Positions 1 to 15,748 of a stretch of 62,283 nt of DNA are shown here, one piece after another (within the stretch, counting starts at the first letter, position 1; every line of letters begins with the position of its first letter). Location: assembly GCA_018920365.1 (NCBI GenBank), contig JAHLMM010000002.1:1-62283 (forward strand). Reading direction: 5' to 3'. Below the pieces are notes generated by a model that worked only from the letters and a program-made list of their open reading frames with translations, was not told the DNA's origin and searched no databases. This stretch comes from Candidatus Aenigmatarchaeota archaeon. Its GTDB lineage: Archaea > Aenigmatarchaeota > Aenigmatarchaeia > CG10238-14. The position numbers and the translations under genes were made by a program.

Positions 1-970
1 CTTGGACTGTGAATGAAAAGCCTGACAATGGTTGCTCGCCTTGATCCCATACGCCGTTTGCGTTGGAATCGTAAAATTTGAAGACTTTTAGAGTGCCTTG
101 TATTGTAGGCTCAGGTGGTAATGCTAAAGCAGCTGTGGTTGGAAATCCATCTATACCATTAGAAAATGTCAACCTTCTTTGATTTGATCCATCAGCGTTC
201 ATTACCCATAATTCTCTTTGACCATCAGCATCCCTTGTAAATACTATACTGTATCCATCAGGTGAAAATACAGCATCTCTATCATCAACACTATTGAATG
301 TTAACTGCCTTACACCGCTACCGTCTATATTCATGACATATATTTCATTGTCACCGTCTCTGTCAGATGTAAATAGTATTTTGCTACCATCTCTTGAAAC
401 TGATGGTAACAAATCTTTAGCTGTACTATATGTCAATCTTCTCAAACCACTACCATCCTGATTCATTATATATATTTCATAATTTCCATCCCTATTTGAG
501 TGGAAAACTATTCTTCCGTCAGGTGCGAAAGAAGGATCAGCATTATCATAATCATCCCATGTCAAGCTTCTTTGGTTTGATCCGTCAGCATTCATTATAA
601 AAATATTTGAATCATGACCGGTTCTTCTTGAAGACGTAAACACTATTTTGCTTCCGTCTGGTGAAAATGCAGGATCCCAATCAATAGCATCATTGAATGT
701 CAATCTTCTTTGATTTGATCCGTCAGCGTTCATTACATATATCTCGCTCTGCCCATCTCTTTTTGAATCAAATGTTATCAAGTTACCATCAAATGAAAAC
801 ATAGGGTTTTTATCTGTAACTGAATTAAATGTTAATTGTCTTAGGTTGCTTCCATCTGGATAAATGGTGTGTATCTCTAAATCACCATCTCTTTCAGAAG
901 CAAAGCCTATGATAAAATTAGCCTGAGCAATCGGCAAAAGCAACAATACTAATAGCAGTAGTTTTTTCAT
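1..970 (-). CDS. Secreted TolB/PD40-type beta-propeller protein (C-terminus truncated by window edge)
   Basis: Reverse-strand reading from ATG at 970: MKKLLLLVLLLLPIAQA signal peptide, then repeated 'F.SDRDG..EIYVMNADGSN.RRLTFN' blades; open at window start so missing from the ORF track. Confidence 0.85.
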   Translation of the reverse strand, partial: MKKLLLLVLLLLPIAQANFIIGFASERDGDLEIHTIYPDGSNLRQLTFNSVTDKNPMFSFDGNLITFDSKRDGQSEIYVMNADGSNQRRLTFNDAIDWDPAFSPDGSKIVFTSSRRTGHDSNIFIMNADGSNQRSLTWDDYDNADPSFAPDGRIVFHSNRDGNYEIYIMNQDGSGLRRLTYSTAKDLLPSVSRDGSKILFTSDRDGDNEIYVMNIDGSGVRQLTFNSVDDRDAVFSPDGYSIVFTRDADGQRELWVMNADGSNQRRLTFSNGIDGFPTTAALALPPEPTIQGTLKVFKFYDSNANGVWDQGEQPLSGFSFTVQ

Positions 971-1970: not shown

Positions 1971-3842
1971 ATGGTTGAATATCCTATATTAAGTCCACCA
2001 GAACCTCCGAAACCTCCTGTGAAGCTTGGTAACGGCATAGTTCTTGATTTGAACATGTTTCCTGGAGAAGGAATAAACTCATCTCCTTTTGAAGCAAGAG
2101 GTTTGCTTGATCTTACGTTTAATTTAGGCGGCGGTACTGGAATGATGCTTGGTTTGATTTTCCAGTTAGGCAAATGGGGATACAATGTTGTGAAAACAAA
2201 ACAAAGCATTGCTGTCACACCAATGTATACAGAATATTATCAAAAAACAATTGAAGAAAAAAGAAAACTTGAAGAGCAAATGAAAGCTGGTTTTGCTAGC
2301 TTGACGACAGCCGTAAGCGATTATGAATTGCTTATGCATGATGTAAGAAAGTATAAAGAATACCTGGATTATTTCAAGGATATAGAAATAGCTAAAAAAG
2401 AATTAGAAGAAGCTGAAAAGAAAAAGGATGAAAAAAAGATTTCAGATGCAAAAGAAAAATTAAAAAGGGCAAAACATGTTCTAAGGGCTGTGTTTGTTGA
2501 TCAAGTTGATGCTCACACAGGAGAAGGCATCAGCATGAAAACAATTGCAGTAAGATGGCCCACTATTATAACAGATTTTATGAGTTTGGCAGAAGATTAT
2601 GATGATCCTGACCAAATAATTAAAGCATTAGGCAACGGCATACCAAGAGCAGAAGCTGTTATTCTTGCTACAAAATGCAAATTATTCAGGGAATGGTTAA
2701 CATATTTTTACAGCACAGTAAAGGAAAGATATACAAGACTAATGAGCATGGCAGAAGCAAGAAGAAAATCAATAGAAGAATATAGAAACAATCTCAAGCC
2801 TGTCATCAGTAGATTCAAGCAGATAAATGACATGGAAACTTCTATCGGACCTTTAAACAGATTCGCTTGGTTCAAATCAGATTCGCAGGCAATTTCAATG
2901 GATTCTGAAACAATATGGGCATGGCGTCCTTTCATATCGCCAGATCCTTTTAGGCCACCAAGAGACGTGGCTAGTGATGTTACATTTCAGCAAGCTGGTT
3001 TTTACAATTTAGCCAAATATTATGTTCCTGGAAAAACTGAAGAAGAAAGGAAAAAAAATAGAGAAGAAATAATCAAAGCCATCAAAAGACTTGAAAAAGA
3101 CAAAAAAACTGTGCCTGCATTACCTGCCATACCTTGTGTTGACAGAATACTTGTAGCTCTTGCCAGACAAATAGAGTATGAATATAATATACCGTCAACA
3201 CAAATGGTTGGCTTAATTTATGATAAAATAAAAGAATTATCTGGTAAATTTGTACCACCTGATTTAGCAAAACCAACGGCAGCCGGCATAAAATGGCCTT
3301 TTAGCCCATATTATATATTTGTCCAGATGAGTGTTGACAGAACTGTTATAAAGCTACCTAATGGTGCATTAATAGAAGATATATGGATTGAACCTTTAGA
3401 AACATACAACTCAACACAAAATGTTATTCTTGGAAGAATGCTAGAAGTTGAAGCCATAAACATTAAAGAAAAGAGGGAAGTTTTAACACTACTAGGCGAG
3501 CAAATAGAAAGAGGAAAAGATATAATAGGAATGGATGATATAGGAAAGGTAGATTATCCTGAGATATTTGACGGCGAAAAAAAGGAAGAAAAGATTGATT
3601 TAAAACTGCCACCAGAGCCTCTGAATCAAAGAATAGAGGACTTTGCACTAAAAATATCAGAGCATTTAAGAAAAATAGGAATCAATGCTAGATTCTTTTA
3701 CGCACCTACATATGAAAAGCTGATGAGTGAAAGAATGTCAAAAATGATGCAACTTGGTCCAGGAAGAATGTATGGTACAATAACAGAATATTTAAAAAGG
3801 GCTGCAGGTGTGCCCGGAGCTGAGCCAAAGATATGGATATAA
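1971..3842 (+). CDS. Large protein of unknown function, central coiled coil
   Basis: 623 aa ORF; Pro-rich N-terminus; stop overlaps next start by 10 nt. Confidence 0.8.
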   Translation: MVEYPILSPPEPPKPPVKLGNGIVLDLNMFPGEGINSSPFEARGLLDLTFNLGGGTGMMLGLIFQLGKWGYNVVKTKQSIAVTPMYTEYYQKTIEEKRKLEEQMKAGFASLTTAVSDYELLMHDVRKYKEYLDYFKDIEIAKKELEEAEKKKDEKKISDAKEKLKRAKHVLRAVFVDQVDAHTGEGISMKTIAVRWPTIITDFMSLAEDYDDPDQIIKALGNGIPRAEAVILATKCKLFREWLTYFYSTVKERYTRLMSMAEARRKSIEEYRNNLKPVISRFKQINDMETSIGPLNRFAWFKSDSQAISMDSETIWAWRPFISPDPFRPPRDVASDVTFQQAGFYNLAKYYVPGKTEEERKKNREEIIKAIKRLEKDKKTVPALPAIPCVDRILVALARQIEYEYNIPSTQMVGLIYDKIKELSGKFVPPDLAKPTAAGIKWPFSPYYIFVQMSVDRTVIKLPNGALIEDIWIEPLETYNSTQNVILGRMLEVEAINIKEKREVLTLLGEQIERGKDIIGMDDIGKVDYPEIFDGEKKEEKIDLKLPPEPLNQRIEDFALKISEHLRKIGINARFFYAPTYEKLMSERMSKMMQLGPGRMYGTITEYLKRAAGVPGAEPKIWI

Positions 3843-13093: not shown

Positions 13094-14266
13094 TTAATTT
13101 TTCTTCATAAATCCTTCTAATTTGTTAAATGCTTCTTCCATAACATCTATTGGTGGCAATATTATTGACCTGAAATGATTTTTTCCATATCTTTGGCCAA
13201 AACCAGAGCCGTAAGGAAAGATTATGCCAGTATTTCTCAAAACATCAAGACAAAATTCTTTGTCATTGTTCCATCTTCCTTTGATATCGACCTTTGGAAA
13301 TATGTAAAATGCCCCCTTAGGTTTTACAGCACTTAATCTGTTTATTTCATTAAATCTTTTGAATGCATATTCGCCTCTTTCTTTTAATTTTTTGTTTATT
13401 TCTTGTATGTGTGATCTCTCTGAAAAAGCCTTTGAGCATGCCTTCATTACAGGTGTGGATGCGCATAATCTATTTCTTGCCAAAGAATTGACAACTGCTT
13501 TCAAGTTATTGATTTTTCCTGTTGGATCTTGGAAATACATATAACCTAAACGCCAACCAGGAATTAAATATGATTTTGAAAATCCATTCAATATTATAGT
13601 TGGTACGTCTCTTGCTATGGACGCCATACCAGCATAAAAAGCATTGTCAAATATTAGCTCGTCATATATTTCATCTGAAATTATTGGTACTTTGAATTCT
13701 GCTGCTATGTCAACTATTTGCTTTAATAATGATTTGTGATAAACAGCACCAGTTGGGTTGTTTGGGTTTATGACAACAATAAACTTTGTGTTTTTTGTTA
13801 TAGCTTTTCTTAAACTATCCAAGTCAGGCTCCCATTCTTTTTCTTCATCTAATTTGTATGTATTTATACTGCCACCAAAAAACTTTATTATTCCTATATA
13901 CGGAGCATATGAAGGTTCTGGTAGCAGCACTTCATCCTTTTTTGATGAAATAGAAGAAGCAAACAAGAAAAACAGACCTTCGCTTATCCCTTGTGTGACC
14001 AAAACATCTTCTTTTGCTATATGAGCATCATTTTTTTCCCTCTCCCTCTTAATTATAGCATCTATTAATTCGCTGTCGCCTTCAGAATCAGAATAGTGTC
14101 CTGCTTTTTGTTTTACTGCATCTATTAAAGCATTTTTCAGAAATTCTGGAGTATCGAAATCAAACTTGTTAGGATCGCCTATGTTAAATGGGTAAATTTT
14201 CTTGTCTTTTATCTTTCTAGCCTCAATTACCATATCTCTTATTGGATTTTCAATTGGTTTTCTCAT
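13094..14266 (-). CDS. Class I/II PLP aminotransferase (alanine/aspartate aminotransferase-like)
   Basis: VVINPNNPTGAVY, SDEIYDELIF, NGFSKSYLIPGWRLGY (PLP lysine). Confidence 0.9.
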   Translation of the reverse strand: MRKPIENPIRDMVIEARKIKDKKIYPFNIGDPNKFDFDTPEFLKNALIDAVKQKAGHYSDSEGDSELIDAIIKREREKNDAHIAKEDVLVTQGISEGLFFLFASSISSKKDEVLLPEPSYAPYIGIIKFFGGSINTYKLDEEKEWEPDLDSLRKAITKNTKFIVVINPNNPTGAVYHKSLLKQIVDIAAEFKVPIISDEIYDELIFDNAFYAGMASIARDVPTIILNGFSKSYLIPGWRLGYMYFQDPTGKINNLKAVVNSLARNRLCASTPVMKACSKAFSERSHIQEINKKLKERGEYAFKRFNEINRLSAVKPKGAFYIFPKVDIKGRWNNDKEFCLDVLRNTGIIFPYGSGFGQRYGKNHFRSIILPPIDVMEEAFNKLEGFMKKN

Positions 14267-14313: not shown

Positions 14314-14325
14314 TATAAATAAATA
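14314..14325 (+). promoter_or_regulatory. TATA box-like element upstream of sRNA candidate
   Basis: TATAAATAAATA about 20-25 nt upstream of the candidate C/D RNA 5' end. Confidence 0.4.
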
Positions 14326-14336
14326 TGAGCTTTAAA

Positions 14337-14394
14337 CCCGATGAAGACTGACAGGCGGACTGAAATAATGAAGATTCCTTTAAGTTCAGAGGGG
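14337..14394 (+). ncRNA. Candidate C/D box sRNA guiding 16S rRNA 2'-O-methylation
   Basis: CCGATGA (C-like) - guide - CTGA (D', 14360-14363) - AA - TAATGA (C'-like, 14366-14371) - guide - CAGA (D-like, 14387-14390); ATTCCTTTAAGTT (14374-14386) is the exact reverse complement of conserved 16S AACUUAAAGGAAU. Confidence 0.6.
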
Positions 14395-14401
14395 AGGTGA
14401 C

Positions 14402-15748
14402 TCATCTGCATGTTTCAATATATTCAAAATGCATTGGATCAAAACTGCACCAATATCTTCCGCCCCATCTAAATCCTGATGATTCAAATGCTTCAACTAC
14501 TTCTGGTGGAATATCTATAATACATGAAGGATTATTGCATGGATCAGGATCATTAACATTTCCCCAATTTGTATTTACATTCAGATCAATAGCCAACCCA
14601 AAAGAATGAGGACTTAAAACCGTTGGGTTGTTAACATTATACCTAAAATTATAACTACCGCCATTTACAAAAGTATATGTTCCACTTGGGAAATAATATG
14701 TCCTGCCACTGTGTGGATATTTGTTTAATTTAGATTCCACTTCTGCAAATTTTGAAACTAGTCTTTTGTTTACTGTTATTTTCATGCCGACAAAATCTAT
14801 TGTCTGAAGCTGGCTTTCTATTTCACTTTTCAAATCATTCCATGTTTGAGTATCATAAACATTTAGATAATTTGACGATGGGTTGTGAATGCTTTCGTAC
14901 ATGCAAATTGTGCTGTCGCATGAATCTATATCTGCTGGATTTGTATTTGAATTTTTTACATTATTTGGGCAAGGTGGATATGGTACACCATTTTTTTCTC
15001 TGTTTATCATGCAAGGATTATATGGGCATGTCATATCTCCGCCTTTTTTACATGAATTTAATGTTATTTGACTTTGCTGTTTGCAAAAGTTATCATTATT
15101 ATCAATTAATCCATTACAATCATTGTCAATTCCGTCAGAACATGAAAATTCAACAGTAGACTTGCAGTATTTGCACCAATCGCTGTTTGAAGGGTTTGAA
15201 GTAGTTGGCGGTTGACACAAACTACAATCGATTTGAGTTTCACAGATACATTCATTGCATAAAGTATTACCTGTGCAAGTACCAAAGTTATTTGCTTGAC
15301 AGACAGTTGCATCACCGTCACAAAATTCTGTCCCCTCTACTATATTATTACCACAATATCCTTCGTTAATAACAGATATTTCTTGCTTGCTATAGTCATA
15401 TCTTAATTTTATTTTGTAAAAGGTGTTTTCATTCAAATCAAAATTCAAATAAGATTTTACGTTGAAATTTTTTGAAATACTTTCAATATCTTTGTTTGTT
15501 ATTTTCTCTCTAGAATTAACTGTTATTGAATAACAATCAACAGAATTTGGTTCTTTGCCGTAATCATGTTTTGACCAACAATTAGATGCGCACAATGTAA
15601 GATAGTCTTTTATATCTGTTTTACTACCAGTTATATTTTCAAAGCATTTTGCTGTTGATGATGATTTGGAAAGAAATATAAAGAGAAGCAGTGCTGCTAT
15701 TGGTATTACAACTAAAACAATAGTTGATATCAACTTTCCTGCTTCCAA
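14402..15748 (-). CDS. Secreted M15-family (VanY/CwlK-like) peptidase with Cys-rich N-terminal region
   Basis: SPHSFGLAIDLN (SxHxxGxAxD), GFRWGGRYW, DPMHFEY; N-terminal TM; DGIDNDCNGLID metal-binding-like motif. Confidence 0.85.
   Translation of the reverse strand: MEAGKLISTIVLVVIPIAALLLFIFLSKSSSTAKCFENITGSKTDIKDYLTLCASNCWSKHDYGKEPNSVDCYSITVNSREKITNKDIESISKNFNVKSYLNFDLNENTFYKIKLRYDYSKQEISVINEGYCGNNIVEGTEFCDGDATVCQANNFGTCTGNTLCNECICETQIDCSLCQPPTTSNPSNSDWCKYCKSTVEFSCSDGIDNDCNGLIDNNDNFCKQQSQITLNSCKKGGDMTCPYNPCMINREKNGVPYPPCPNNVKNSNTNPADIDSCDSTICMYESIHNPSSNYLNVYDTQTWNDLKSEIESQLQTIDFVGMKITVNKRLVSKFAEVESKLNKYPHSGRTYYFPSGTYTFVNGGSYNFRYNVNNPTVLSPHSFGLAIDLNVNTNWGNVNDPDPCNNPSCIIDIPPEVVEAFESSGFRWGGRYWCSFDPMHFEYIETCR

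Follow-up and report, generated by a model that had tools for sequence, protein, structure and literature searches.

The window analysed here is a 62,283-nt stretch of a Candidatus Aenigmatarchaeota genome. Between a gene for a class I/II aminotransferase (13094–14266, minus strand; PF00155, E 2.8e-54) and a gene for a D-Ala-D-Ala carboxypeptidase-like protein (14402–15748, minus strand; PF13539, E 4.8e-16), the spacer is occupied by a 68-nt gene at 14330–14397 on the plus strand, opposite to both, which is identified with high confidence as that of a dual-guide archaeal C/D-box sRNA, its transcription and the methylations it would direct being predicted. The aminotransferase gene is its divergent neighbour and its syntenic partner in the genus; the carboxypeptidase-like gene is convergent, with a stop codon 5 nt beyond the RNA. 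An A+T-rich, TATA-like element, TATAAATAAATA (14314–14325, plus strand), is a possible promoter by its sequence only, and the assignment is uncertain because it lies closer to the stem than a TATA box usually would. A scan of the whole window at Rfam gathering scores returned no match, and the sRNA has no Rfam family; by class it is very probably an ordinary guide RNA, but one previously unlisted. A sequence-only reading of the locus had already claimed an unannotated C/D-box sRNA. The strings that it quoted are all present (TATAAATAAATA from 14314, ATTCCTTTAAGTT at 14374–14386), and the claim is upheld by homologs, stem covariation, joint target statistics, the protein machinery and the empty Rfam scan.

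All elements of the RNA lie on the plus strand, in the order terminal stem, C box, 12-nt guide, D' box, C' box, 12-nt guide, D box, stem. The 5' strand of the stem (14330–14340) is made of CUUU (14330–14333), an AAA bulge and CCC (14337–14339), followed by G 14340 as the first nucleotide of the k-turn loop; it pairs with the 3' strand, GGG then GAGG (14391–14397). The C box, AUGAAGA (14341–14347), has one mismatch to the RUGAUGA consensus and is followed by the D' guide CUGACAGGCGGA (14348–14359) and the D' box CUGA (14360–14363). The C' box, again AUGAAGA (14368–14374), precedes the D guide UUCCUUUAAGUU (14375–14386) and the D box CAGA (14387–14390; consensus CUGA). By joint target scoring, the N+5 nucleotides opposite the D' and D guides are 16S C1402 and U912 (E. 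coli numbering), respectively. Although each is one base off consensus, AUGAAGA and CAGA keep the bases needed for tandem G-A pairs. The C-12-D'-C'-D pattern occurs a single time in the window, at 14341, against a mean of 0 over 200 shuffles; the fold energy is unremarkable (z 0.19), as expected for C/D RNAs.

This register departs from that of the sequence-only reading, which had misplaced the C boxes as CCGATGA and TAATGA. These strings overlap the true boxes and would leave guides of 14–15 nt, whereas the AUGAAGA register makes both guides exactly 12 nt long, the standard 12+12 arrangement, with CCC/GGG abutting the k-turn. The boxes had also been described as non-consensus and possibly divergent: AUGAAGA and CAGA are indeed off consensus, but the divergence is smaller than was claimed, AUGAAGA being one base from RUGAUGA. 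For annotation purposes, AUGAAGA is thus a usable C box, possibly one that standard scans miss.

Within the genus, a DNA search recovered a copy in G002 at 75% identity, and reading upstream of the aminotransferase gene located the element at the same locus in all four genomes, with G001, G002 and G003 arranged like the genome of the window (G000). The four sequences align nearly gap-free, and the covariance model built from them, a scan of the kind that the sequence-only reading had proposed, has hits in 24 of the order's 37 genomes, with E from 1e-6 to 1e-23, and at E<=0.001 it has no hit in the 121 remaining members of the class; a model rebuilt from all 24 copies gained only two marginal matches. 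Every copy parses as C(7)-12-D'(4)-3..7-C'(7)-guide-D(4) flanked by a stem. The boxes, on whose conservation in relatives the earlier claim had been staked, are kept across these homologs: the C box starts with ATGA in 23 copies and GTGA in one (ATGAAGA in 20), the D' box is NTGA in 23 and AAGA in one and always lies exactly 12 nt past the C box, the C' box has ATGA in 24/24 and the D box is CNGA in 24/24. Guide length is likewise constant for the D' guide (12 nt in 24/24), and is 12 nt in 18 of 24 D guides and 10–13 nt in the others. The two strands of the stem (14330–14339 and 14391–14397) covary, with compensatory changes at 7/7 pairs; over the 24 homologs, 97.6% of the cells are paired, compared with 76.8% in shuffles, and 42 cells are doubly changed where shuffles average 12. 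A lineage known solely from assembled genomes gains in this way an order-wide family of guide RNAs. As a side observation, the guides of the window copy (14348–14386) are closer to those of genus g7 (G011 and G012: GACAGGCGG, TCCTTTAAGTT) than to those of its own genus (G001–G003), despite sitting at the genus locus.

The proteins expected to act with such an RNA are encoded. Fibrillarin is present in 35/37 genomes of the order, and G000 encodes fibrillarin (PF01269, E 5.4e-84), an adjoining Nop5 (PF01798, E 1.6e-63) and L7Ae (PF01248, E 4.7e-30). If transcribed, the RNA would form a C/D k-turn closed by its terminal stem and a second k-turn from the internal C'/D' motif, and L7Ae, Nop5 and fibrillarin would assemble on it. 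The D guide would then pair with 16S AACUUAAAGGAA (or AACUUAAGGGAA), so that U912, in the region of helix 27 and the central core, would be 2'-O-methylated; the D' guide would pair with 16S CCGCCCGUCA, and here the nucleotide to be methylated would be C1402 of the decoding centre.

The D' half is conserved across the order. Taken together, the 24 D' guides pick 16S ACCGCCCGUCAA, for which N+5 is C1402, with a score of 195 against 163.5 for the runner-up (0/300 shuffles), and scoring the four genus guides together likewise gives C1402 (33.5 against 28.5). Since the 16S gene of the window genome is absent from the assembly, in which neither its own 16S nor its own 23S was found, pairing was tested in relatives, where it holds against their own 16S. 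Two relatives, G015 and G023, have U1400 in their 16S, matched by an A at guide position 3; because the same A also occurs alongside C1400 in Methanoliparia and in G005, this change is not clean covariation. The only clean case is a C/D RNA of Huberarchaeum, in which the guide (GAUAGGCGG) has changed at two positions in step with two changes in the 16S (CCGCCUAUC), so that pairing is perfect.

Against the 16S of relatives, the window D' guide pairs in the pattern x|||||x||||x, and, if its own 16S resembles theirs, position 7, which is two nucleotides from the target, is mismatched as A-C. G011 and G012 have this mismatch against their own 16S, and on such grounds one may suppose that the RNA is mainly a folding chaperone acting on both 16S sites, the D' guide of this copy no longer methylating C1402; chaperone roles are proposed in PMC4644070 for N. 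equitans dual guides to distant sites. The supposition is unlikely, though it deserves weighing: the mismatch comes together with a C8-G1405 pair in place of a U-G wobble, position 5 and its neighbours are paired, and G009, G011 and G012 have retained the same D' guide, which suggests that it is functional. Methylation of C1402 is kept as the prediction for this half of the RNA.

Far less credible is the target given to the D' guide by the sequence-only reading, namely that its CAGGCGG is aimed at CCGCCUG in the 880 region. There are 7 contiguous pairs between the guide and 16S GCCGCCUGGGG, but these 7 bp are all, and the target is not conserved; G012 has the identical CAGGCGG guide, yet its 16S reads CCACCUG there, so that the target is missing, and joint scoring favours C1402 whether the four genus guides or all 24 are taken. 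Of the accompanying proposal, a dual guide acting on one rRNA neighbourhood, what stands is that there are two guides and that both are predicted to address the 16S; because the D' target is C1402 and not the segment just upstream of 912, the two sites are distant in sequence.

Synteny with the aminotransferase gene in the genus could also be taken to mean a cis-acting leader or k-turn element controlling the aminotransferase or the peptidase gene, instead of a trans-acting guide, the more so as L7Ae can bind k-turns in mRNAs (PMC5539422). This is highly improbable, for both neighbouring genes lie on the opposite strand and the locus differs outside the genus, the sRNA being 9 kb off in G007 and on different contigs in G009 and G012; besides the boxes, moreover, the strongest conservation is that of the rRNA-complementary guides.

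Turning to the D guide, the 13-mer ATTCCTTTAAGTT is the exact complement of AACUUAAAGGAAU, as the sequence-only reading had stated. The match is a fact of sequence, though insignificant alone: counting antisense 13-mers in the window gives 2 for a 16S reference and 6 for 16S and 23S together, so that a 13-nt match by itself is not beyond chance. The proof of class is comparative. That the 16S match arose by chance in A+T-rich intergenic DNA can be given almost no credence, however frequent such 13-mers are in the window, the idea being refuted by the conservation, covariation and architecture of the homologs. A minus-strand 16S vestige was considered as well and rejected, the two complementary segments being in the order opposite to that of 16S.

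At the D-guide site, the 16S of relatives mostly reads AACUUAAGGGAAU, and mostly has AAACUUAAGGGAAUU, not AAACUUAAAGGAAUU. The window D guide forms 12 bp with the 16S of a relative, one of them a G-U, whereas the D guides of G001–G003, AACCCUUAAGUG or AACCCUUAAGUC, pair over positions 2–10 and have a C opposite the G of that G-U site; for G001 and G003, the members of the genus whose 16S is known, the pairing thus covers only 9 bp. Jointly, 13 related D guides pick 16S AACUUAAGGGAA, with 127 against 94.5 for the runner-up when 16S and 23S are scored (0/300 shuffles). The assignment of U912 by the N+5 rule, made earlier from a single guide, is thereby confirmed as a prediction through homologs and joint scoring. 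Unrelated sequence takes the place of the D guide in other genera, which means that this half has been retargeted, or its target lost, there; the divergent guides (GUUUGCCGAGUY, AGCCUUAAAAA, AUUGGCUGGCU and others) gave no convincing rRNA match in a comparison that did not cover their own 23S. One of these genera keeps the D guide GTTTGCCGAGTY (G017, G022, G030 and G020), likewise with no convincing rRNA target, as an orphan guide.

Some relatives have 16S genes with introns at or beside the sites targeted by the guides. In G003 and G011 the intron follows GGGAA, at about position 918; G009 has one close to 908, and G009 and G017 apparently have one around 1398–1400, where CGCCCGTCA occurs without the preceding CACAC. 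The G003 intron (about 2440–3096 of the G003 16S) is roughly 650 nt long, and its ends are complementary. It is conceivable, but quite improbable, that the RNA serves as a 16S maturation checkpoint, in which holding the 912 and 1402 strands would couple folding of the core and decoding centre to the removal of introns at both target sites in several relatives.

A pattern scan of a genome contig collection for this type of D' guide gave matches beyond the order, in dozens of Archaeoglobi and in Hydrothermarchaeota, Methanoliparia, Huberarchaeum and others, most of them showing the full C/D architecture together with a GCC/GGC stem. Among 12 bacterial matches, only two parse, and in neither is the stem longer than 1 bp. 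The C/D RNAs of Archaeoglobi, Hydrothermarchaeota, Methanoliparia and Huberarchaeum share with the Aenigmatarchaeota family the D' guide type NNGAUGGGCGAN, the D' box CUGA, the C/D architecture and the predicted C1402 target, but their boxes are textbook AUGAUGA (the C box in these other phyla is mostly ATGATGA) and their D guides are unrelated. They may share an ancestor with the Aenigmatarchaeota family. Dozens of Archaeoglobi species combine the C1402-type D' guide with a conserved D guide, AGGGAGAG(T/G), and the Hydrothermarchaeota D guide is CCCTATGAGC(A/G); neither gave a convincing rRNA match in a comparison that did not cover their own 23S. Overall, these sequence comparisons indicate that Cm1402 would be guided by C/D RNAs in many archaea.

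The Cm1402 mark of the decoding centre is made by proteins in bacteria and by snoRNAs in eukaryotes. Bacterial RsmI and RsmH modify the same C1402, but they are stand-alone enzymes with no guide RNA. The eukaryotic guides, such as Arabidopsis AtU43 for Cm1645, act on the identical nucleotide (Cm1639 in yeast, Cm1703 in human), whereas the archaeal RNA is dual, with U912 as its second site, and there is no evidence of sequence descent. Nm has been mapped at the position corresponding to C1402 in E. coli, yeast, human and plants, as well as in Pyrococcus abyssi, where it is listed as Cm1369 (PMC8053127, PMC11542601), and as a target this nucleotide is therefore already known in bacteria, eukaryotes and Pyrococcus. 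A survey of seven species describes predictions for helix 44 as sparse and mentions A1408 and G1494 there (PMC4644070). Considering that a review of seven archaea reports no guided site common to all (PMC7994747), a C1402 guide retained this widely merits a test. The RNA family, the box variant and the combination of U912 with C1402 appear to be unlisted in the literature, the supplementary target lists of PMC4644070 aside.

To conclude, the RNA at 14330–14397 is a new family, while guides of the same build are already known, and are standard, in archaea (PMC7994747). Compared with the archaeal C/D-box sRNAs of Nanoarchaeum equitans, Pyrococcus and Sulfolobus (PMC7994747), it has AUGAAGA and not RUGAUGA as C and C' boxes, CAGA as the D box of the window copy and no Rfam match; what it shares with them is its size, the four boxes, two guides of about 12 nt, a terminal stem by the C/D k-turn, predicted targeting of the rRNA core by the N+5 rule and the encoded fibrillarin, Nop5 and L7Ae.
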